Both the position numbers and the translations under genes were made by a program. From positions 1 to 36,733 of the IMG/VR virus record IMGVR_UViG_3300009177_000073: 36,733 nt of DNA. One strand, written 5' to 3'. Source of the DNA: a virus. Under the pieces are notes generated by a model that did no database searches, was not told the origin of the DNA, and was given only the letters and a program-made list of their open reading frames with translations. Positions 17,391 through 36,733 of this stretch are shown here, one piece after another (position 1 is the first letter of the stretch; every line of letters starts with the position of its first letter).

Positions 17391-17494
17391 TTCCTAGTGT
17401 GAGTTGCTTAGCCTAATTAAACGACGGTCTTACAAGTGACTGATGCTCGCTGGCGCTGCGCGCCTAGCTCGCTCCTCTCGATCAAACAAAAGCA
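17391..17494. other. Intergenic GC-rich islet with small hairpin and a CGACGGTCTT repeat
   Basis: 104 bp between two exported-protein genes with no credible frame. It holds one copy of the repeated decamer CGACGGTCTT (17422-17431) and a GC-rich islet around 'GGCGCTGCGCGCC' that forms a 5-bp stem with a 3-nt loop. Such GC content is out of place in this AT-rich genome. No U-run follows on the minus strand, so terminator function is not supported. Confidence 0.4.
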
Positions 17495-17890
17495 TCAATG
17501 AAAATAAACTGAATCAATAACAACACTAGTTCCAGTTTCTCTAATAGCTCTAAAGTTTACAATTGCGACATGACCATTAACAGTAACAGTATCGCCGTAT
17601 AAAGCTCGTAGACCTGCCGAAGATGTTGGAGTAGAACCATCAACAGTAAATCTTAAAATACAAGTTGTTCCACTTGCACAATTAACTGTAAAGGTTGCGA
17701 CGTTAGCATTAGCAGTTGCAGTTGGATCAGATGAAGTAATTTTTGAACTAGTGAAACCTGCAGCGGTTCCAGCGATAGTTAAAGTTTCAGAATTGTAGGG
17801 AATGAGATCCCTGGCAACTAAGACCGTCGATTGAGTTATTCCAGCAATTAAAAGACTAAGGAGTAACAGCGATCGATTGAATAACTTCAT
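17495..17890 (-). CDS. Small exported beta-domain protein
   Basis: 131 residues: signal sequence 'KLFNRSLLLLSLLIAGITQSTVLVA', then a small Cys-containing beta domain ('VATFTVNCASGTTCILRFTVDGSTPTSSAGLRALYGDTVTVNG', 'AIVNFRAIRETGTSVVIDSVYFH'). The C-terminal beta pattern resembles phage capsid or tail appendage domains. ATG at 17890 follows AAGGAAAA. The gene start lies inside the end of the small-terminase-like gene by 35 nt. Probably secreted or anchored at the cell or virion surface; exact role unknown. Confidence 0.6.
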   Translation of the reverse strand: MKLFNRSLLLLSLLIAGITQSTVLVARDLIPYNSETLTIAGTAAGFTSSKITSSDPTATANANVATFTVNCASGTTCILRFTVDGSTPTSSAGLRALYGDTVTVNGHVAIVNFRAIRETGTSVVIDSVYFH

Positions 17891-18359
17891 AATCGTTTTC
17901 CTTCTTCATAGGTGGAGCATTGATTATTACCTGAACTCTATTTCCACCATCACTTCCGGTGATTACTTTACCAGATATCTTCTCAAAGGTTTCAGCTAAC
18001 ATCTTTGCAGTAGCAGCAGCTTCCTGAGGTTTAGTAGTATTAACTAAGTTCTCTTTCATTTCATCTATAGCACGGCTGATTCCATCGAGAAGTTCGTCCT
18101 TAACAGAATCAACATTTGCCTTAACCTTAGTTGCAATAGCTTCTTTTAATTCAGTATTTACTCCAACAGCATCACTAATTATAGCTTTACTAAGTCTACC
18201 AGCAGTTTCTCTAACTACTCCAGTAACCTCGGCAGCTTCACTAGGAGAAGTTAATTTAGCAAGTGTTCCAATAGCTACACGCTCATCAGTAGTTAAATGT
18301 TGACGAGAATTAGTTGTGCGTTTAATTCTTTCAATGTATTCTTCTTGTTCTATATACAT
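17856..18359 (-). CDS. Probable terminase small subunit (DNA-binding)
   Basis: 167 residues from the ATG at 18359 (an ATG at 18410 would add 17 residues). It has an N-terminal helical part with a helix-turn-helix-like stretch ('LTTDERVAIGTLAKLTSPSEAAEVTGVVRETAGRLSKAI'), central oligomerisation helices ('VKDELLDGISRAIDEMKENL') and a C-terminal 'VQVIINAPPMKKENDYEVIQ' strand-like tail of the type seen in many small terminases. It is the first gene of the late arm, a usual place for terS. No search was done; a regulator is the alternative. Confidence 0.55.
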   Translation of the reverse strand: MYIEQEEYIERIKRTTNSRQHLTTDERVAIGTLAKLTSPSEAAEVTGVVRETAGRLSKAIISDAVGVNTELKEAIATKVKANVDSVKDELLDGISRAIDEMKENLVNTTKPQEAAATAKMLAETFEKISGKVITGSDGGNRVQVIINAPPMKKENDYEVIQSIAVTP

Positions 18360-18410
18360 TGGGACGACGCCAACACTATAACATAGGGACACCCTCGAAA
18401 ACCTCAACAT

Positions 18411-18602
18411 TTACGGGCCTCACGCAGTGACCCAAGTTGGGACACCTAGGTAGTTTTGATTTTCTATTATTATATATTTGGAATATGAGACTCTTTTATT
18501 TTTTAAAGTATGTAGGTCTTTCAAGGTACGCCCAAGTTTTGTCCCAGCATGAGACTCTATAAAAGGGGGTGTATGGGGTGTGGATTGATTGATGAACTTT
18601 AT
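18411..18602. promoter_or_regulatory. Divergent intergenic region, left half: candidate late-arm promoter zone
   Basis: 192 bp with no credible gene, upstream of the left (minus) arm. It contains two direct repeats of ATGAGACTCT (about 18485 and 18549), two copies of CCAAGTT followed by a GGGACA/TGTCCC word, and one copy of the repeated GTTGGGACACC word near 18436. On the minus strand TTGAAA with AT-rich sequence about 17 nt downstream could be a weak promoter, but no good -10 box stands out. A phage-specific late promoter is possible. Confidence 0.35.
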
Positions 18603-19674: not shown

Positions 19675-19693
19675 TGTCCACAAAATGAGACAG
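19675..19693 (+). promoter_or_regulatory. TGTCC-N9-GACAG dyad, origin left copy
   Basis: TGTCC-ACAAAATGA-GACAG. The same 19-bp pattern occurs in front of three sigma70 promoters (24312, 25798, 28780) and, inverted, on the other side of this AT-rich core (19799-19817). The AT-rich core begins where a -35 box would be in the other copies, and GATATAAT lies about 17-19 nt further on. Confidence 0.65.
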
Positions 19694-19798
19694 GTTTCTA
19701 TTCTTTATCTATATATAGATATAATATATATAATATATAATATATATAAATAATATATATAATAATATATATAATATAAATATATAAAGAATATAAAA
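19694..19798. other. AT-rich core of candidate replication origin (DNA unwinding element)
   Basis: Bases 19719-19788 contain no G or C at all (70 bp of A and T, mostly TATAAT-like steps). The flanks are an imperfect palindrome: 19689-19708 and 19784-19803 match as inverted repeats at 18 of 20 positions, including ATTCTTTAT/ATAAAGAAT. Low melting stability, symmetric flanking sites and intergenic position suggest the place where DNA opens for replication. No gene is present. Confidence 0.6.
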
Positions 19799-19817
19799 CT
19801 GTCACCTTTTTCGGACA
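19799..19817 (-). promoter_or_regulatory. TGTCC-N9-GACAG dyad, origin right copy (inverted)
   Basis: Read on the minus strand it is TGTCC-GAAAAAGGT-GACAG, followed by TTTTATATTC. It mirrors the copy at 19675-19693 around a centre near 19746, so the two sites face each other across the AT-rich core. Confidence 0.65.
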
Positions 19818-19825
19818 CCTTGCGG

Positions 19826-19978
19826 TGGGTAGCAAGGTATGATACAGTGGGGGTATCTCCGGTAAACGTCGATGGATACAGGCTTAACTCCTACTTTCCT
19901 TTCGGTAACACTCTGGTATCTGGTCGGTAGCTACCCGGTAGCCTACTGGTAGAACCTTGGTAGCAGGTTGAAGGTATG
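19826..19978 (+). repeat. GGTA iterons, right flank of candidate origin
   Basis: About eleven GGTA words, nearly all in one orientation and opposite to the TACC words on the left: for example GGTAGC at 19828, 19926, 19937 and 19959, GGTATC at 19852 and 19915, GGTAAC at 19904, GGTATG at 19973. Only one TACC interrupts them. Orientation flips exactly across the AT-rich core. No credible coding frame before 19976. Confidence 0.6.
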
Positions 19979-24311: not shown

Positions 24312-24330
24312 TGTCCCCAAAGGTGGACAG
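24312..24330 (+). promoter_or_regulatory. TGTCC-N9-GACAG dyad upstream of promoter a
   Basis: TGTCC-CCAAAGGTG-GACAG directly abuts the -35 box TTGACT. Same 19-bp pattern as at 25798, 28780 and at both sides of the candidate origin. Location just upstream of -35 favours an activator or a repressor that overlaps polymerase contacts. Confidence 0.7.
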
Positions 24331-24359
24331 TTGACTTAATGATTAAACTATGAGACAAT
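24331..24359 (+). promoter_or_regulatory. Sigma70 promoter a
   Basis: TTGACT (24331-24336), 17-nt spacer, GACAAT (24354-24359). Start site predicted near 24366. The transcript would begin with a hairpin TCGGGA-ATGG-TCCCGA (24367-24382), a typical 5' stabilising structure, and lead into the 155-residue gene. Confidence 0.75.
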
Positions 24360-24410
24360 GGTCTAGTCGGGAATGGTCCCGAGGTTAGTTAAAAACAAAG
24401 GATAAAGAAA

Positions 24411-24878
24411 ATGTCTGCTACTCTAGTTACTGTGACAAAGAATACCCGTGGCCGTGACTCCCGTGAAGTTTCGTATAAGGCAATTGGTAAGTATGTTTCT
24501 CGCACTATTGCACGTGAAACTGATGAAGAGGGTAAGCCGCTTCCTAAAGATGAGAATGGAAAGCAGATTACTCGTGATGAAGTTGTAGAGGAATTTGATA
24601 GTAACGGCGTTTTGACTGACGTTGCTGATGTTCGTGCTCTACTTCCTGCTGGTGAATCTGGCGATCGTATTTTCCTTGATATCGTTGCTGATGGTTATAA
24701 TGAGTGGGCATTCGCACAGGAATCTAACCGTGATGAATTGACGCCATTTATTTCTCACCTTAACGACGATCAGCAGGCTACAATCCGACGGGCTGTTAAT
24801 GCAATGGCTAAGGTTGAGATGTTTAAGGATAAGCCGAAGGTTGATATTCTTCAGATGATGCTGAAGAATGCGGCTTGA
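24411..24878 (+). CDS. 155-residue protein on its own transcript, likely abundant
   Basis: Starts after GGATAAAGAAA, 45 nt downstream of the predicted start site of promoter a. Codon usage (CGT, CGC, GCT, GGT, CTT, AAG) differs from the AT-rich neighbours and resembles highly expressed genes. The fold is probably mixed alpha/beta ('RDSREVSYKAIGKYVSRTIARETDEEGKPLPKDENGKQITRDEVVEEFDSNG' early, helical C-terminus). It has its own promoter and a downstream structured region and terminators. Unrecognised; the most strongly expressed early product by these signs. Confidence 0.75.
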   Translation: MSATLVTVTKNTRGRDSREVSYKAIGKYVSRTIARETDEEGKPLPKDENGKQITRDEVVEEFDSNGVLTDVADVRALLPAGESGDRIFLDIVADGYNEWAFAQESNRDELTPFISHLNDDQQATIRRAVNAMAKVEMFKDKPKVDILQMMLKNAA

Positions 24879-24889
24879 TTTTACTTACT

Positions 24890-24960
24890 GTTGATATTAT
24901 TCCAACGTATCAACAATTAAGTAAATTGGTTCTTTCCCATTCTCCAATCAAAAGAATGGG
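24890..24960 (+). terminator. Two terminator-like hairpins after the 155-residue gene
   Basis: GTTGATA (24890-24896) pairs with TATCAAC (24908-24914); then CCCATTCT (24936-24943) pairs with AGAATGGG (24953-24960), followed by ATTTGTT. The second has the better terminator shape, 8 pairs and a weak U-run. Either could separate the protein message from the structured RNA downstream. Confidence 0.55.
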
Positions 24961-24964
24961 ATTT

Positions 24965-25081
24965 GTTAAGCTTGCTAGGCCGGGGGTTATTAAGTATTTA
25001 GTACTAGTGGAGAAAGCTAATAACTTTCAATAAACTACCTAAAATACCTCTGATACAGTACCGGGACTTAGCAAGCTTAAC
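24965..25081 (+). ncRNA. Structured RNA candidate with 13-bp closing stem
   Basis: GTTAAGCTTGCTA (24965-24977) and TAGCAAGCTTAAC (25069-25081) are exact reverse complements enclosing 91 nt. Inside are GTACT/AGTAC pairing (about 25001 and 25057) and a GAAAG/CTTTC hairpin (about 25012-25029), plus a GC-rich GGCCGGGGG segment. There is no coding frame. It lies between two terminator structures on the sense strand of promoter a. No known RNA family recognised; compensatory changes in relatives would decide. Confidence 0.55.
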
Positions 25082-25097
25082 AATTCTCTAGCTGATA

Positions 25098-25139
25098 TAT
25101 TATTGGGGGTGATTTATGCGTTAAATCAATCCAATAATA
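25098..25139 (+). other. Two-tier hairpin following the structured RNA candidate
   Basis: TATTATTGG (25098-25106) pairs with CCAATAATA (25131-25139), and inside TGATTTA (25110-25116) pairs with TAAATCA (25122-25128) with a TGCGT loop. Perfect in both tiers. It may be the end of the structured RNA or a processing signal between it and the tRNA. Confidence 0.5.
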
Positions 25140-25154
25140 GGTCGGGCCGTTTCT

Positions 25155-25194
25155 TGTTAGTTCTTTCGATATAAGAACTAACACTTTTCTTTTT
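25155..25194 (+). terminator. Strong Rho-independent terminator before tRNA-Met
   Basis: TGTTAGTTCTT (25155-25165) and AAGAACTAACA (25173-25183), 11 perfect pairs with a 7-nt loop, followed by CTTTTCTTTTT. A textbook terminator. It ends 9 nt before the tRNA, so the tRNA must come from read-through or from an unrecognised promoter. Confidence 0.8.
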
Positions 25195-25203
25195 AAAACA
25201 AAA

Positions 25204-25277
25204 GGGCCATTAGCATAATTGGTTAATGCTTTCGGCTCATAACCGAAATGATTTAGGTTCGAATCCTAAATGGCCCA
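25204..25277 (+). tRNA. tRNA with CAT anticodon (Met, or Ile after CAT modification)
   Basis: Acceptor stem GGGCCAT/ATGGCCC, D arm with GGTTAA loop, anticodon stem TTCGG/CCGAA with loop CTCATAA (anticodon CAT), T arm TTAGG-TTCGAAT-CCTAA. All stems are intact. CCA is not encoded. The first pair is G-C, not the C-A mismatch of initiator tRNA, so it is elongator Met or the tRNA-Ile(CAT) that TilS modifies. Phage tRNAs usually supplement codons rare in the host. Confidence 0.93.
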
Positions 25278-25326
25278 CTTTATTCCATTCAACATTGATT
25301 TAAATGCTGTAAAGGCTTGGTATCGA

Positions 25327-25533
25327 ATGACTAAGAGAGAAGAAATAGAATATCATTTTAGTGATGTTTACTGGCCTATTACAGATTCAAATGAATACAA
25401 TTATGTCTGTCCAATGTGTTACGCTGTAGTAAATGGATATAATAGAATAATGCATGTTCAATGGCATCTAGATTTATTCGATTCAATCAATGGTAAAGAA
25501 AATGAAGGCCAGACTAAAACAACGTCATCTTGA
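25327..25533 (+). CDS. Small C2H2-like zinc-finger protein
   Basis: Residues 'CPMCYAVVNGYNRIMHVQWH' give C-x2-C-x11-H-x3-H, a single C2H2-type finger, in a 68-residue protein. The start at 25327 is my choice. An upstream ATG at 25270 would lie inside the acceptor stem of the tRNA and would need an unprocessed transcript, but it extends a coding-like frame by 19 residues. No clear ribosome site helps. Function unknown; single fingers can bind DNA or protein. Confidence 0.6.
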   Translation: MTKREEIEYHFSDVYWPITDSNEYNYVCPMCYAVVNGYNRIMHVQWHLDLFDSINGKENEGQTKTTSS

Positions 25534-25723
25534 TGATTTTCCAGATTGGCCTATTATTAAAGCTAATGTTCCTTTAGGTAAGGAATATGAAGTCATAGGA
25601 TTTAGATCTGATTGTGAGATAGAACATATTGAAACTGGACGTAGAACTATTATAAATGTTTATCTTTGTCGATGTCCTGAATCAACAGGTTGGTTACCAG
25701 TAGATGTATTGGAGATTGATTAA
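25502..25723 (+). CDS. 73-residue basic beta-rich protein
   Basis: Start at the ATG at 25502 (GGTAAAG just upstream); an ATG at 25490 adds four residues. It overlaps the preceding gene by 32 nt. 'PDWPIIKANVPLGKEYEVIGFRSDCEIEHIETGRRTIINVYLCRCPESTGWLPVDVLEID' looks like a small barrel (SH3-like), a common form of small phage proteins. Ends 75 nt before the next operator. Function unknown. Confidence 0.65.
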   Translation: MKARLKQRHLDDFPDWPIIKANVPLGKEYEVIGFRSDCEIEHIETGRRTIINVYLCRCPESTGWLPVDVLEID

Positions 25724-25797
25724 ATTAGTTATAACCTGTAGGGTGTCCCAACATTCACAGCAAGTTTCATGATTTAAATATAATAAAGAATGATTAA

Positions 25798-25816
25798 TGT
25801 CCTATAAAGTGGACAG
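25798..25816 (+). promoter_or_regulatory. TGTCC-N9-GACAG dyad upstream of promoter b
   Basis: TGTCC-TATAAAGTG-GACAG, two bases before the -35 box. Third exact-spacing copy of the same operator. Confidence 0.7.
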
Positions 25817-25818
25817 CG

Positions 25819-25847
25819 TTGACATACGCTTCTAGATGCGTTATACT
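25819..25847 (+). promoter_or_regulatory. Sigma70 promoter b
   Basis: TTGACA (25819-25824), 17-nt spacer, TATACT (25842-25847), close to consensus. Predicted start near 25854, followed by a 5' hairpin TACAGGC-CGTAGAA-GCCTGTA (25861-25881). It leads into the GC-rich block and the HNH gene. Confidence 0.8.
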
Positions 25848-25853
25848 ACGCTT

Positions 25854-26038
25854 AGACGATTACAGGCCGTAGAAGCCTGTAAGACTCGCCAGCCTACCAA
25901 ACGTCCTCGGACCCATTTCTACTGTATGCCACGCTCATATCGAAGCCTAACGCCAGATTCGGCCACTCCTGTAGTCGTCGTGCGTGTCGATTTCCCCTCC
26001 GAGCCTATAGAGGCACAGTATGGGCTGTCTACGGAAGT
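25854..26038 (+). other. GC-rich foreign-looking block (leader of HNH gene, or ncRNA)
   Basis: About 185 bp with clearly higher G+C than its surroundings, bounded by promoter b and the HNH frame. Two frames are open through most of it. One starts at an ATG at 25836 (inside the promoter spacer) and gives 73 residues, ending at 26057, whose C-terminal 43 residues (from 25926) have G/C-ending codons unlike other genes here. The other runs into the HNH frame from 25883. I cannot tell whether it is a recent insertion, a structured RNA or a small gene. Confidence 0.4.
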
Positions 26039-26692
26039 ATTAAATTACTTAGAATAAGATGCCCTAAATGTCATAAAGAAGTATTAGTTGATAATGATAA
26101 TATATTATCGTGTTGTAATATAAATTTACAAGATATAAATTTTAAGATTGTTGGATATAAGTTAGAATCTGGTGGTAGAGGATTAAGAAAAACTATACCT
26201 AGATATATAAAAGAAGAGATAATAAATAGACAAGATAATAAATGTATTTATTGTGATAAAGAATTTGGTAGTTTTGATGAAGATAAACTTAAGATAGTTA
26301 GAATGGAATTTGATCATTTCACTCCATTTTCATTTACTCAATGTGATAACTACGAAAATATAGTAGCATCATGTAAAGATTGTAATAGAAAAAAGTTTGA
26401 TAAAATATTTGAAAGTATAGAAGATGTGAGGTATTATGTTAAAACAGGAGAGCTTAGGAATGGGAATTTGTCCGATATGTGGAAAGCCTTTTCACAAGCT
26501 AAGAGTGAAACAAATTTACTGCCAAGCAAAATGTCGTCACAAAAATTGGAGAGATCAACATCCAAGGATGAAAAATACAGAAAAGACTTAAGTTGTGATG
26601 CTTTTGAAATATATGAGAAAGATAATTATCTTCGTATAGTTGATAATAGAGGATTAGCTATAATAACTAAAGAAGGAATAAAATATGAGTAA
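26039..26692 (+). CDS. HNH-like endonuclease with zinc knuckles, no canonical start codon
   Basis: The frame ending at 26692 codes for RCPKCHKE (a zinc knuckle), 'SCC', then CIYCDKEF...MEFDHFTPFS...NIVASCKDCNRKK, which is the HNH core (DH, N, and CxxC pairs; conserved Asp-His and Asn). The first ATG (26303) would cut off the knuckles and part of the core. The listed start is an ATT at 26039; ATA at 26054 or a CTG at 25922 are other options. The C-terminal 'FEIYEKDNYLRIVDNRGLA' resembles two small proteins at 20.0-20.4 kb. A broken or shifted start is possible. Confidence 0.55.
   Translation: MKLLRIRCPKCHKEVLVDNDNILSCCNINLQDINFKIVGYKLESGGRGLRKTIPRYIKEEIINRQDNKCIYCDKEFGSFDEDKLKIVRMEFDHFTPFSFTQCDNYENIVASCKDCNRKKFDKIFESIEDVRYYVKTGELRNGNLSDMWKAFSQAKSETNLLPSKMSSQKLERSTSKDEKYRKDLSCDAFEIYEKDNYLRIVDNRGLAIITKEGIKYE
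26460..26591 (+). CDS. 43-residue zinc-finger protein nested in the HNH frame
   Basis: ATG at 26460 with AGGAG 9 nt upstream. 'GICPICGKPFHKLRVKQIYC' then 'QAKCRHKNWRDQHPR' is a typical phage zinc ribbon (CPxCGKxF...YCxxxCRxKxWR), much more protein-like than the overlapping HNH frame at the same place. Four Cys. It uses a different frame of the same DNA and lies entirely inside the HNH frame. Confidence 0.65.
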   Translation: MGICPICGKPFHKLRVKQIYCQAKCRHKNWRDQHPRMKNTEKT

Positions 26693-28280
26693 AGAAGGCA
26701 ACACAGTCATTGGAGGATTAACTATGCAGTCTTATACTGGATTACCTTACGGTGTATTTCCAGACGTCCTTTGCACCTCTACTGTGACCTACGTTGCTTA
26801 TAAGAATTCTTTAGGTCTTTGTGTTTATCAATTTCCTAATGGACATCCTGAACAAGCTACGCTTGTATTACAAGAGTCAGAGAAAGTAGATATTGGATTT
26901 GCTCGTTTGTTCCAATATAAAGGTAAGGTATTAGTAGCTTACGCAGCTAATATTCAACCAGCAACTTCAATTATACTTATTGATGTTGATGCACATTTAC
27001 AGTTAAAAGTAACACAACCTTGTGTCGGAAACTACCCATGTTGTTTTGGTGATAAGTATTTATTTTATCAGAAGTTAAGGGCTGATAAAGGAATTGATTT
27101 AACTAAAATAGACTTAGATGATCTTACTGAAAGTCCAGCTACAGGGAATCCTGCACCCACTGGGTTGGCATATTACGATGGAACAAATGTAATAAACATG
27201 GATCAAAATAGGGCATCAGTTCAAGGATGCTTTAATCCAATGAGAGCTAAAGAAGGTGGAGCATTAGTAGGTGAAGATCCTGTTAATGGTTTATTCACAA
27301 TCATTGGTACTAAGAAAGGCACGATTAATAAGGGTAATACAAACAACAATCCTCAATGTGCCTTCGACGGTCTTAACTTAACCACAGTTTATTGGAATCC
27401 ACCGGAGATATCTAATGTCTTCACTATCTTATACAATATTACGGCTGCTGATATTCCTGATAAGCCTGTTATTCCATTGCCTGCTCCGCCGTCCAAAACT
27501 AAACAGAGATGGATAGGGGCTTATTTTAATAGAAGTTTAAGATATGGTGACAATCCTAACAGAGTAGGTAATATTACAATAATAGCAGATGAAGCCTACC
27601 CCATTGAAAACTTAGCTGAACCTTTAATTGTTACACACAGTGTGGGAGATGCTAAGATTATTACTAAACAAGATTTAATTATTGCATACTACGCTGGAGC
27701 CGGTAATGTTACAGACTTACAAACAGTTTATAGCTCATTCCTTTCGCTACCTGAAAAACCAATCTTGGCATACATTGATGGTAGAGCTTGGCCCTCTATA
27801 TGCCCTAGTTATTTTAAGAAGAATAAAACATGGTTGGGAGTTCAGTGTTATCCTAACACTAATGAGACGCCTGCTATATTTCAAAACGCAATGGAAGCTA
27901 TCTTGGACCAAGTATCAAAATATGGATTGCCAATCTGGTTAATTACCTGTTTATACGATCGTAACTTCACGCTAACGTTAGATCAAATTGAAGCAGTTCA
28001 ATATTGTTACAACCTATGGTATGATAAGTATAACGTGATAGGTGAACTAGCTTTTGATGATCGACGGTCTGGTCTAAAGAATTATCCACAGTTGATTCCA
28101 TATTTAAATACTAGATTTGACGATACCATTAGACCTACTCGCGCAATGTATTGGTCACCCGATAATGACTGGAGACGTGCCTATTTAGACGCATTAATTA
28201 AAGGTGATGTTTTAGTTAAACAAGGTTCGCAAGAATCACTTTATACAATTAGTTTGATTAAGAATAATCTTGGAGTTTAA
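26685..28280 (+). CDS. Large beta-propeller/TIM-barrel-like protein in the early arm
   Basis: 531 residues. The first half has repeating 'VTYVAYKNSLGLCVYQF', 'KGKVLVAYAANIQP' and 'GLFTIIGTKKG' strands like a propeller; the second half alternates strands and helices ('KPILAYIDGRAWPSICPSYF', 'TWLGVQCYP', 'GLPIWLITCLYDR', 'YNVIGELAFDDRRSG'), like a glycoside-hydrolase-type barrel. ATG at 26685 overlaps the HNH end; GGAGG also precedes an ATG at 26724. A surface or receptor protein in the replication arm is unexpected. Catalytic residues not assigned. Confidence 0.6.
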   Translation: MSKEGNTVIGGLTMQSYTGLPYGVFPDVLCTSTVTYVAYKNSLGLCVYQFPNGHPEQATLVLQESEKVDIGFARLFQYKGKVLVAYAANIQPATSIILIDVDAHLQLKVTQPCVGNYPCCFGDKYLFYQKLRADKGIDLTKIDLDDLTESPATGNPAPTGLAYYDGTNVINMDQNRASVQGCFNPMRAKEGGALVGEDPVNGLFTIIGTKKGTINKGNTNNNPQCAFDGLNLTTVYWNPPEISNVFTILYNITAADIPDKPVIPLPAPPSKTKQRWIGAYFNRSLRYGDNPNRVGNITIIADEAYPIENLAEPLIVTHSVGDAKIITKQDLIIAYYAGAGNVTDLQTVYSSFLSLPEKPILAYIDGRAWPSICPSYFKKNKTWLGVQCYPNTNETPAIFQNAMEAILDQVSKYGLPIWLITCLYDRNFTLTLDQIEAVQYCYNLWYDKYNVIGELAFDDRRSGLKNYPQLIPYLNTRFDDTIRPTRAMYWSPDNDWRRAYLDALIKGDVLVKQGSQESLYTISLIKNNLGV

Positions 28281-28281
28281 G

Positions 28282-28590
28282 ATGAAATTAACAATGAAAC
28301 AGTTGGCTTATTTACCAGCTTTAGATTGGTTGGTTGATGATAGTCCAGAAACTTGTGGTTCAGGTAGAACATATCTTCTAGCTTATGCTTTTTTAAGAAG
28401 GGCACATAATAATTTAGATAAGGAAGTATTGATATTCGATCATTTTCCAGATTATAGAAATATAGATTTTATTGCAAGAAATATTTTTCATATTTATAAT
28501 GAAGAATATAAAGATAAATATAACATATATTATTCTCAAGTATATAAAACTATAATTATGAAGGAGAAGAAAAGTGAGAAGCAAAACTGA
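28282..28590 (+). CDS. Short P-loop-like protein
   Basis: 102 residues. ATG at 28282 follows GGAG; an upstream TTG (28270) is less likely. 'DSPETCGSGRTYLLAYAFLRRA' resembles the shortened Walker A of small phage P-loop-like proteins (GxGRT), then 'KEVLIFDHFPDYRNIDFIARNIF' gives a strand ending in Asp, as in a Walker B. No helicase motifs follow, so the protein is a minimal or degenerate NTPase fold. Role unknown. Confidence 0.6.
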   Translation: MKLTMKQLAYLPALDWLVDDSPETCGSGRTYLLAYAFLRRAHNNLDKEVLIFDHFPDYRNIDFIARNIFHIYNEEYKDKYNIYYSQVYKTIIMKEKKSEKQN

Positions 28591-28777
28591 ATTCAAACAA
28601 GATGAAAAGTATGCATTGATGAGGAAGTTTAGTATTGAAAGAGTAAATAATTTATTTAATTCTGAATTACCTGATGGAACTAGACTATTTAATCTAACAA
28701 AACGCGAAGCTGAATATATCTATCACATTGTAAAGCAACATGTTGATAGAGTTAATAGAAGGTCTAATAATAAATAG
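28574..28777 (+). CDS. 67-residue basic helical protein
   Basis: GTG start with AAGGAG 7 nt upstream, overlapping the previous gene by 17 nt. Charged helical sequence ('ERVNNLFNSELPDGTRLFNLTKREAEYIYHIVKQHVDRVNRR'). Could be a small DNA-binding or accessory protein. It ends two bases before the operator at 28780. No family recognised. Confidence 0.6.
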   Translation: MRSKTEFKQDEKYALMRKFSIERVNNLFNSELPDGTRLFNLTKREAEYIYHIVKQHVDRVNRRSNNK

Positions 28778-28779
28778 AT

Positions 28780-28798
28780 AGTCCTCAAACGAGGACAG
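28780..28798 (+). promoter_or_regulatory. TGTCC-N9-GACAG-type dyad upstream of promoter c
   Basis: AGTCC-TCAAACGAG-GACAG, one base off the consensus at position 1, one base before the -35 box. Fifth copy of the operator in the window. Confidence 0.65.
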
Positions 28799-28799
28799 C

Positions 28800-28828
28800 T
28801 TGACAACGCTCACTGAGTATGCTACAAT
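28800..28828 (+). promoter_or_regulatory. Sigma70 promoter c
   Basis: TTGACA (28800-28805), 17-nt spacer, TACAAT (28823-28828). Predicted start near 28835. It drives the block that contains the SLOG protein, the nuclease, the Sak4-like ATPase and the following replication genes. Confidence 0.8.
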
Positions 28829-33125: not shown

Positions 33126-33215
33126 GCCGATATGGCGGAATTGGTATACGCAGCGGACTTAAAATCCGCGGCTCCTTTAAAGAGCATATAGGTTCGAGTC
33201 CTATTATCGGCACCA
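33126..33215 (+). tRNA. tRNA-Leu (TAA anticodon)
   Basis: Acceptor stem GCCGATA/TATCGGC, D arm, anticodon stem GCGGA/TCCGC with loop CTTAAAA (anticodon TAA at 33160-33162), long variable arm (GGCTCCTTTAAAGAGC) typical of class II tRNA-Leu, T arm ATAGG-TTCGAGT-CCTAT, and an encoded CCA. Reads UUA/UUG, a codon heavily used in this AT-rich genome, so it probably compensates for a host with fewer UUA codons. Confidence 0.96.
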
Positions 33216-33233: not shown

Positions 33234-33464
33234 ATGTGGATATCAGATTGCAGAAAGATTTATGACTCTTACCGTGATAATCCTTCTATTAGAAATCTCA
33301 GTCGCACTCTTAATCGTTCACGATCTGATATACAACGACGACTATTAGTGGCTCGGTATTTCCATAACTACCCTGAGCTACTAGATATGGATTCACTTAA
33401 CGAAGCTTATAAGTATGTTCTAAAGTTGAGGAAGATACAGCGTTTATTAAAGAGGAAGAAATGA
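33234..33464 (+). CDS. Small basic helix-turn-helix protein, regulator candidate
   Basis: 76 residues. 'NPSIRNLSRTLNRSRSDIQRRLLVARYFHNYPELLDMDSLNEAYKYVLKLRK' contains an HTH-like stretch (IRNLSRTLNRSRSDIQRRL) of the ParB/KorB or sigma-like type, followed by a helical dimer-like part and a very basic tail (KIQRLLKRKK). A possible reader of the TGTCC-N9-GACAG sites or of the origin repeats; that link is speculation. Start ATG at 33234, no strong ribosome site. Confidence 0.6.
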   Translation: MWISDCRKIYDSYRDNPSIRNLSRTLNRSRSDIQRRLLVARYFHNYPELLDMDSLNEAYKYVLKLRKIQRLLKRKK

Positions 33465-34230: not shown

Positions 34231-34363
34231 ATCACTAGGCTCTGGTAAATTTATGCCAGTTAGTGAGGACGGAAGTAAGAAGTTTTTAAGTAAGCCAGTT
34301 AGTAAGAAGAAGGCTAAAAAGAGATTAGCACAGGTAGAGTTCTTTAAGAATAAAAGTAAGTAG
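34223..34363 (+). CDS. 46-residue very basic protein
   Basis: ATG overlaps the previous stop by 8 nt. Sequence is strongly basic (SKKFLSKPVSKKKAKKRLAQVEFFKNKSK in its C-terminal part, more than a third Lys/Arg), so it probably binds nucleic acid. It ends 17 nt before the polymerase start. Too short for family assignment. Confidence 0.55.
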   Translation: MLKSLGSGKFMPVSEDGSKKFLSKPVSKKKAKKRLAQVEFFKNKSK

Positions 34364-34380
34364 TTGTAGTTGGAGTCAAA

Positions 34381-36733
34381 GTGGCAAACTTCGTTCCGGG
34401 TGTTGGTAATTTCAACACTAAACTGATCTTTTGCGGTGAGGCTCCTGGCTCTACAGAGGATAGAGTCGGCGAGCCTTTTGTCGGTTCAAGTGGGGAATTT
34501 TTAGATGGAATGTTGTCAGAGTTGGGACACCCTGAATGGAGGGCTGAATACTATACGACTAATATATATAAATTTAGACCACCAAACAATGATATTAAAC
34601 GCGTAGCGGAAGTATGTAATCCTGCTCAACAAGAAGAATTAGTATGGAAAGAAATCAATGACATCAAGCCTAATGTAGTTTGTGCGTTAGGTGAAACTGC
34701 GTTAAGAAAGTTAACTGGATGCTCTGGAATATTAAAGTATAGAGGGAGCATCCTGCGAAGCAAGTATGGGATTCCAAAAGTTGTAGCAACAATTCATCCA
34801 TCAGCAATTATTAGAGCAGCTAATGCAGATTATGAAGAAGGCGCCCCCGAAGGTGGGGCATTAAACTACATATGGCGTCGTGTAGTTATTCAAGATATCG
34901 CTCGTGCTATAGACGAGTCTGCTTTTGATAGACTTGACTTACCTCAAAAGTTTATTAAGGTTTGTAGCTCATCGAGTGACTTAAATAAGTTTATACGTGA
35001 AGGTGTAGGTAGGGATAGAATTTATCTGGACGTTGAAACTTATAGCTCCACGTTAGTAATGTGTGTCGGATTAAGCTGGGACGGTATTTCCTGTTTAGTT
35101 GTTCCATTAATCCAAGGTATTGGTAGTAAGGAAATAACAACAATACCAACATCAGACCTAGCCTTTATCTGGCAGTTACTCCAACAATTATTTAATAACT
35201 ACGAAATAGCTGGTCAAAACCTCAAGTTCGACATTCCTAAGCTACAATCAATCGGCTTTACCTTCAAACGTCACATCAAGTCAGACCTACTACTGAAAGC
35301 TCATACGATAAATCCTGAGATGCCTAAGAAATCATTAGGCTTCCTTACCTCAATTTATACAAGAATGCCCTTCTATAAGGATGAAGGTAAAGAGTTTGTA
35401 TTTGGTAGGGACAACATCAATGATTACTTTCAATATAATGGTAAAGATGTATGTGCCACAGGTGAAATTGATTTGGCAATGGAGGAAGAATTAATCGAAG
35501 TTGGTGAGCAGTATAATATAGATTTAAAAGGATTCTATTACAATTTCGTAGTTAAGAAGCATTCATTTTACTGCGACTTAGAACGTCTTGGATTAAGGGT
35601 AGATCCACAAGTTAGAGAATACCTAGCAGCTAAATATGAGATGTGGTTAGGCGACATTGATAAAAGACTCCAAGCAATGTTGGGACACCCTATAAATTTC
35701 CGGTCCCCAAAACAGTTATCAGACTTGATATTTGGAGACTTAGGAGTTCCTACTTATAGGATACCTAAAGGTAAAAAGTATTACAAGACTAATGAAGATA
35801 TCATAGCAAAATTGTTGCGAGACACCATTAAAGATAGCTATCGTACAACAATTTTAGAATTGATGCTTGAACGTCGTAGAGTAGATAAGACATTAAATAC
35901 ATATCTTTATAATCTACTTGACTTAGATGGACGGGCTAGAACTTCAGTAAACATCGTTGGAACTGAAAATGGTAGAACTTCAACATCAAACTTAGGTCCA
36001 CCTGATAGACCTTATGATTGTGGTAATGCATTCCAAACATTAACAAAGCATGGTGAAATTGGTGGTGATATTAGACTTCAGTTTATACCAGATGAAGGAA
36101 TGATATTTGTTAATATTGATAAATCACAGGCTGAAGCTCGCGTCGTAGCATTACTAGCAGAAGATTATGATTTATTAAATGCAATAGATAAAATTGATGT
36201 TCATCGTCGTACCGCCCGTTGCGCCTTAATCGACGGCGTTATGAACTTAAGTTATGACTTCGATCCTATTGCTGATAAAATGGGTAAGGATAGTCCTGAA
36301 CGATTCTTAGGTAAAAAGTCAAGACACGCTACTAACTACGACATGGGTTGGCGTGAATTCTTAACTAACTTAATCACTGAGGCTAAGCGTAATAACTTAG
36401 ACTTAACTTTATCCAAATTTAAAGTGGAGCAAATCCTTGATCGTATACACAAAGCTACCCCTAAAACTAGAGAAATCTTTCATCGAGACATTAAGGAACA
36501 GCTTGATACTAAACGTGCGCTTATTAATCCCTTTGGAAGGATCAGAAGATTCTACGGTAGATTTGATAATAGAATCTACAAGGAAGGATACGCCTGTATT
36601 CCCCAAGGGACAGTAATCGACGACTTAACTCGATCATTATTCGCAGTTAAGGAATTAAAGTTTCCAATCTTTAAGCCAAAGAGTATGGGCATTCAAATAG
36701 AGAGCCACGACAATGGCTTATTCCAAATGCCCA
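34381..36733 (+). CDS. Uracil-DNA glycosylase + 3'-5' exonuclease + family A DNA polymerase (partial, 3' end off window)
   Basis: GTG start with TTGGAG upstream; the frame is open to the right edge (785 codons). Residues 1-165: uracil-DNA-glycosylase-like domain of the GEAPG type (GEAPGSTED at 19-27, 'GEPFVG', 'ATIHPS' near 137-142; no obvious Fe-S cysteines). Residues 205-370: exonuclease with DVE (Asp217, Glu219), 'NLKFD' and YxxxD (Tyr352, Asp356). Polymerase: motif A DKSQAEAR at 580-587, motif B GKKSRHATNYDMGW, motif C SHDNG at the very end. SPO1-type polymerases have a similar UDG-like fusion. A Gly/Ala/Pro-rich GC hairpin (34843-34859) lies at the end of the UDG part. Confidence 0.93.
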   Translation, partial: MANFVPGVGNFNTKLIFCGEAPGSTEDRVGEPFVGSSGEFLDGMLSELGHPEWRAEYYTTNIYKFRPPNNDIKRVAEVCNPAQQEELVWKEINDIKPNVVCALGETALRKLTGCSGILKYRGSILRSKYGIPKVVATIHPSAIIRAANADYEEGAPEGGALNYIWRRVVIQDIARAIDESAFDRLDLPQKFIKVCSSSSDLNKFIREGVGRDRIYLDVETYSSTLVMCVGLSWDGISCLVVPLIQGIGSKEITTIPTSDLAFIWQLLQQLFNNYEIAGQNLKFDIPKLQSIGFTFKRHIKSDLLLKAHTINPEMPKKSLGFLTSIYTRMPFYKDEGKEFVFGRDNINDYFQYNGKDVCATGEIDLAMEEELIEVGEQYNIDLKGFYYNFVVKKHSFYCDLERLGLRVDPQVREYLAAKYEMWLGDIDKRLQAMLGHPINFRSPKQLSDLIFGDLGVPTYRIPKGKKYYKTNEDIIAKLLRDTIKDSYRTTILELMLERRRVDKTLNTYLYNLLDLDGRARTSVNIVGTENGRTSTSNLGPPDRPYDCGNAFQTLTKHGEIGGDIRLQFIPDEGMIFVNIDKSQAEARVVALLAEDYDLLNAIDKIDVHRRTARCALIDGVMNLSYDFDPIADKMGKDSPERFLGKKSRHATNYDMGWREFLTNLITEAKRNNLDLTLSKFKVEQILDRIHKATPKTREIFHRDIKEQLDTKRALINPFGRIRRFYGRFDNRIYKEGYACIPQGTVIDDLTRSLFAVKELKFPIFKPKSMGIQIESHDNGLFQMP

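Follow-up and report, generated by a model that had tools for sequence, protein, structure and literature searches.

Phage-wide operator regulons are already known from several phages; the L5-type stoperator is an asymmetric 13-bp sequence, GGTGGMTGTCAAG, and protein p4 of phage phi29 represses strong early promoters and activates a late one. Here we analyse a 36,733-nucleotide stretch of virus DNA (IMG/VR record IMGVR_UViG_3300009177_000073, in full; hereafter the window), in which that stoperator consensus has 0 occurrences and in which an 18-letter dyad, TGTCC-N8-GGACA, stands a few bp upstream of the -35 boxes of early promoters. This geometry is KorB-like: the operator from which KorB represses lies 4 bp ahead of the -35 (PMC11790492), and phi29 p4, GalR and KorB are described as repressors that sit upstream of the -35 and act on bound RNA polymerase through the C-terminal domain of its alpha subunit (alpha-CTD) (PMC7730913). 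Judged from the DNA sequence, the dyad is the operator of a phage-wide regulon, since the same site precedes several promoters beyond chance and is conserved before orthologous promoters. Neither the operator nor the phage group appears to have been described before.

Like our dyad, the KorB operators (OB) of plasmid RK2 are repeated in one replicon, 4-10 bp or further upstream of their target promoters (PMC11790492), and they are read by a ParB-type DNA-binding domain; the candidate reader proposed below is a putative ParB-type helix-turn-helix (HTH) protein. OB differs in length (16 bp) and sequence, and KorB is a full CTPase clamp working with KorA, whereas the candidate belongs to a family of 76-118 amino acids (aa) consisting of the HTH only. 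Protein p4 resembles the proposed reader as a phage regulator upstream of the -35 that acts on promoter-bound polymerase via alpha-CTD (PMC7730913); it differs in the sequence and number of its sites, and late activation is a guess in our case. The sites of P2 Ogr and P4 Delta lie upstream of promoters and have the form TGT-N12-ACA (PMC3931495), which the dyad contains exactly, but the dyads here are mostly on strong early promoters and their inner CC..GG is fixed. Because an Ogr/Delta zinc-finger protein (PF04606, CX2CX22CX4C) was found in 0 of 15 records, we do not assign the system to this kind; a search of six genomes gave no credible C4 motif either. Finally, the stoperators of cluster A mycobacteriophages are likewise one operator family used across the genome including early promoters (PMC9283540). 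They are asymmetric; the dyads here are found beside promoters or in arrays.

The window has its late genes on the minus strand and its early genes on the plus strand. The initial annotation had listed five copies of a 19-bp unit, TGTCC-N9-GACAG; all five are where it placed them, but the symmetric unit is the 18-mer and the final G falls outside it. The copies are:

24312..24329: operator dyad TGTCCCCAAAGGTGGACA, halves perfect, 1 nt before the -35; kept ahead of the orthologous gene in relatives
25798..25815: operator dyad TGTCCTATAAAGTGGACA, halves perfect, 3 nt before the -35
28780..28797: operator dyad AGTCCTCAAACGAGGACA, 1 mismatch, 2 nt before the -35
19800..19817: proximal dyad TGTCACCTTTTTCGGACA, 1 mismatch, adjoining an AT-rich element, 2 nt before a weak promoter
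19675..19692: distal dyad TGTCCACAAAATGAGACA, 1 mismatch, 125 bp upstream of the proximal dyad; recognisable in 5 of 12 genomes

Five dyads with at most one mismatch compare with 0.275 expected per window under an order-3 Markov null (maximum 3 in 200 draws). The window holds no sixth copy at this threshold, and a match at 36595 has 2 mismatches and lies inside the DNA polymerase gene. The site is not LexA-like, as had been noted before: the proteobacterial type, CTGT-N8-ACAG, has 0 occurrences in the window.

Relatives were gathered from IMG/VR by the operator-promoter pattern, by the protein encoded at 24411 (see below) and by the capsid protein, the last of which gave 42 loci at 48-100% identity. 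About 20 relatives are found in IMG/VR, phages of ca. 49 kb that, by their capsid protein, have no GenBank counterpart; the capsid and 24411 proteins had 0 matches among 50,697 phage records. A helicase query against IMG/VR gave no match, and a host search with the capsid alignment returned no genome with these capsid genes. The comparison set comprises 30 records including the window (917 kb), some of them fragments or near-duplicates that were taken out of most later counts. Outside this phage group, matches of the pattern scan in IMG/VR are mostly chance, and the regulon is, as far as seen, particular to these phages, in keeping with the earlier proposal.

Across the 917 kb, TGTCC-Nk-GGACA (k = 4-14, at most one mismatch) occurs 71 times at k = 8 (17 perfect) against 11-25 times at the other spacings, and outside predicted genes 37 times against 0-3; both counts at k = 8 include near-duplicate records. 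The Markov null and this enrichment, which is confined to N8, rule out a chance origin. When exact half-sites are counted in the non-redundant set, inverted pairs are commonest with their starts 13 bp apart (16; most other distances have 0-3) and rise again at 24 bp (5), and for direct pairs the maximum is at 11 bp (12; next-highest distance 6). Since most direct pairs sit within mixed arrays, such as TGTCC-N6-TGTCC-N8-GGACR, the 24-bp peak is explained as 13 + 11. In the position matrix the halves TGTCC/GGACA are strong, and the centre is weak and AT-rich. Inner positions 6/13, 7/12, 8/11 and 9/10 pair no more than chance (p 0.2-1.0), which argues for a DNA operator and not for an RNA hairpin.

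Four promoters, the last of them inferred, accompany the dyads of the window:

24331..24359, plus strand: TTGACT-17-GACAAT, 9/12, with TGA (TGn extension) before the -10
25819..25847, plus strand: TTGACA-17-TATACT, 11/12; its operon is unmatched in relatives
28800..28828, plus strand: TTGACA-17-TACAAT, 11/12, serving an exonuclease/Zn-protein/Sak4 operon
19820..19848, plus strand: TTGCGG-17-TACAGT, weak, with TGA before the -10, serving the first early operon; 2 nt from the 19800 dyad

The first three had been called near-consensus sigma70 promoters, a description that suits the 17-nt spacers of all three and the boxes of two, though hardly those at 24331. In the orthologous place of the fourth, several relatives have TATAAT or TATACT. 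Among promoter-like sequences of at least 10/12 (n = 83), GGACA ends 1-3 nt before the -35 in 20, and at any other position in at most 1. A scan with a position weight matrix (PWM) finds gaps of 1-3 nt at 22 of 76 promoters, and 27 promoters score 10 or more, against ca. 0.6 expected from the genome-wide rate. The training set of the PWM excluded the G010/G025/G038 group, a divergent subgroup whose dyads the matrix still recovers, at gaps of 12-13 (24411 promoter) and of 24 and 35 (exonuclease promoter); most other genomes have gaps of 1-3 at the orthologous promoters. Relative to the abutting class, the gaps 12/13/24/35 fit a period of 11 bp, picked after the data were seen, with p 0.00015, and one of 10.5 bp with p 0.018; with both exceptions included (see below), the values are 0.005 and 0.04.

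Throughout the group, the promoters with a dyad serve three operons: the first early one, which adjoins the AT-rich element; that of the 24411 gene; and the one encoding exonuclease, Zn-protein and Sak4. The site thus precedes the same three early operons in relatives, orthologous promoters being the place where its absence would have told against the initial annotation. In the window the genes and the element concerned are:

24411..24878, plus strand: first gene behind the 24331 promoter, a conserved 155-aa early protein
29507, 30351 and 30843, plus strand: exonuclease, Zn-protein and Sak4, the operon behind the 28800 promoter
19693..19799: AT-rich element of 93% A+T that relatives conserve; its ends are inverted, of TTCTTTAT..ATAAAGAA type

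The best-conserved dyad is that of the 24411 promoter. The 24411 family has an N-terminal beta region and C-terminal helices in a low-confidence AlphaFold model (pLDDT 75), for which a fold search gave no match; profile comparison does not support a single family uniting the 24411 and 18969 proteins. The 25798 dyad is an additional copy. G005, a distant relative, has one dyad promoter before a small ribbon-helix-helix-like open reading frame (ORF, no Pfam match) plus the Zn-protein, and another before a different gene of 122 aa. Twelve genomes were compared at the AT-rich element, and in each it lies next to the first early promoter; its ends are mostly of TTCTTTATATATA..TATATATAAAGAA type and are least distinct in G005, G023 and G025. 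The inner dyad abuts a promoter-like sequence facing into the early operon in 12 of 12, and several of these promoters have a poor -35 and an extended -10. An outer dyad 101-125 bp upstream is present in five (window, G001, G002, G005, G031).

Half-sites also occur in the late region. In many relatives the first late gene is preceded by several TGTCC half-sites, a feature absent from the initial annotation; they are often 11 bp apart and ca. 29-35 nt before a TTG-type -35 that is followed by a weak -10 (TAAGGT, TACCCT). These putative late promoters and the distances were read by eye. A CCTAGGAAAA-like stretch is conserved between the half-sites and the -35; in relatives, the putative late -35 is directly preceded by CCTAGGAAAA..GGC and, further upstream, by G-rich runs (TTTTGGGGTGTAGGGGG). 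Where relatives have ordered arrays, the window has isolated half-sites only:

18387..18544, minus strand: GGACA at 18387, GGACA at 18440 and TGTCC at 18540, around the late-operon start
17856-18410, minus strand: first late gene, for an HTH protein that the group conserves and that may be the small terminase subunit

Which protein reads the dyad is suggested by distribution and predicted structure. The reader is most likely phage-encoded, and should therefore be expected in every dyad-bearing genome. The best phage-encoded candidate, which we judge to have about one chance in three of being the reader, is:

33234..33464, plus strand: 76-aa putative ParB-type HTH protein

Its family is found in the window, G002, G004, G006, G010, G021-G025, G028, G029, G039 and G041, and in every dyad-bearing near-complete genome examined, in G005 by a weak match alone (E 0.98) with the same gene order; it was not found in G001 and G038, which are fragments. 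The AlphaFold model of the 33234 protein is all-helical (pLDDT 94), and its best fold matches, all with E at least 0.6, include the DNA-bound DNA-binding domains of VirB and SopB (TMq 0.57-0.69) and the ParB HTH protein of phage VpV262 (TMq 0.72). The dyad-poor G026 has, in place of this family, a fusion of ParB_N, HTH and N6/N4 DNA methyltransferase (L154:12887-14137), the HTH region of which aligns weakly with the 33234 family. The N-terminal CTPase domain of ParB was not found in the 33234 family, ParB_N being found only in the G026 fusion. Three other candidates were set aside: a ribbon-helix-helix family (G001_25431 etc.), which occurs in 8 non-redundant records only and is missing from G002, G004 and G006 with their strong dyads; the Zn-binding 30351 family, which is conserved everywhere including G026 and lacks an Ogr motif; and, as less likely, the 17856-18410 protein, which also occurs in the dyad-poor G026 and G027 and resembles a small terminase subunit.

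We propose, with a probability of roughly 0.45, that the dyad is the operator of a sequence-specific regulator that acts on the early operons of the group, mainly by restraining them. The regulator would bind TGTCC-N8-GGACA as a dimer or as a pair of half-site binders. Because the dyad lies at the upstream edge of sigma70 promoters, the protein could bind there together with RNA polymerase and contact it from one constant face of the helix, and by analogy with KorB, GalR and phi29 p4 it would mainly brake strong early promoters. Restraint is favoured as the sign because most dyad promoters come close to the consensus and can do without help: about three quarters retain a TTGAC -35 plus a good -10. 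To judge by the ordered arrays of half-sites ahead of the weaker late promoters, the same protein may act there too, possibly as an activator. Several points weigh against this proposal. The candidate recognition helix of the 33234 family is variable where the motif is constant, with R20, S29 and R55 alone (nearly) invariant, and a host protein could be the reader. Gaps of 48 (G023) and 65 (G024) are poorly in phase and the phasing rests on few independent lineages; given also the post hoc choice of period, the case for helical phasing of the displaced dyads is good but not conclusive. Moreover, helical displacement would be equally expected of an activator, and promoters at the AT-rich element with a poor -35 (TAGGCC, TACCCT, TACGTC) fit activation, yet an extended -10 is present.

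Activation throughout is accordingly the main rival, which we consider possible though somewhat doubtful: the dyad would be an activator site contacting polymerase from about -46 or from one to three turns upstream, like class I/II activators or P2 Ogr. The displacements by helical turns, the weakness of the -35 next to the dyad of the first early promoter (G021, G022, G024 and the window), the weak appearance of the late promoters and the match of TGT-N12-ACA to the P2 late-promoter consensus (PMC3931495) all suit an activator, but the strong boxes of some three quarters of the dyad promoters do not, nor does the absence of an Ogr/Delta protein from the 15 genomes, and early promoters have to fire ahead of any phage protein. 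An unlikely alternative is that a host regulator reads the site and that the phages have put their early operons under its control. The motif is indeed constant between phages whose terminases are ca. 40% identical, while the candidate phage reader varies strongly; however, ordered arrays, operon-specific placement and within-group variants resemble a phage circuit. Restraint by a phage regulator has also a stricter form, which seems quite improbable: a ParB HTH without the CTPase clamp as the sole early-to-late switch, in which inverted pairs would restrain strong early promoters and 11-bp arrays would activate weak late ones, the sign being set by core promoter strength.

The initial annotation had two copies bracketing an origin and thereby tying early transcription to replication, a reading that the comparison weakens and does not support in that form. 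The AT-rich element is a possible origin; bracketing by two dyads is not general, because the outer dyad is recognisable in 5 of the 12 genomes only. That the 19675 and 19800 copies would primarily be initiator-binding sites of a replication origin, with the promoter copies serving secondary autoregulation, is very unlikely: the group does have an AT-rich element with conserved inverted ends that the copies flank or adjoin, but the inner copy abuts a promoter throughout and no initiator was identified. RNA hairpins (terminators, processing or leader structures) can be dismissed, for although the halves can pair and a terminator scan lists two dyads on the minus strand, inner positions lack co-variation, half-sites recur as direct repeats, and the dyads precede promoters.

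Besides these genes, the window encodes a terminase, an SprT/SNF2-type helicase, the exonuclease and the Sak4-like protein, and since its end falls within the last gene listed here the record is incomplete:

25204-25278: tRNA-Met gene, early region
33126-33215: tRNA-Leu gene, early region
34360-36732: uracil-DNA-glycosylase domain fused to DNA polymerase A, gene broken off by the contig end

A separate repeat, the 8-mer GACGGTCT, mostly as CGACGGTCTTA, occurs 9 times in the window against ca. 0.3 expected: at 17423, 20138, 20817, 21777, 23604, 27366 and 28063 on the plus strand and twice more on the minus strand. The copies fall in all three frames of early genes. The 8-mer is rare in relatives (at most 3, the maximum being in G036), and by this distribution it is a repeated signal specific to this lineage.

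An 18-letter dyad upstream of early promoters thus marks a control circuit common to a phage group, and a group of uncultivated phages gains a defined control circuit, in which the operators and the operons under them are known and the candidate readers are few. In nature the operator has already been moved by roughly one, two and three helical turns, which offers a ready-made test of how regulators upstream of the -35 act on polymerase.

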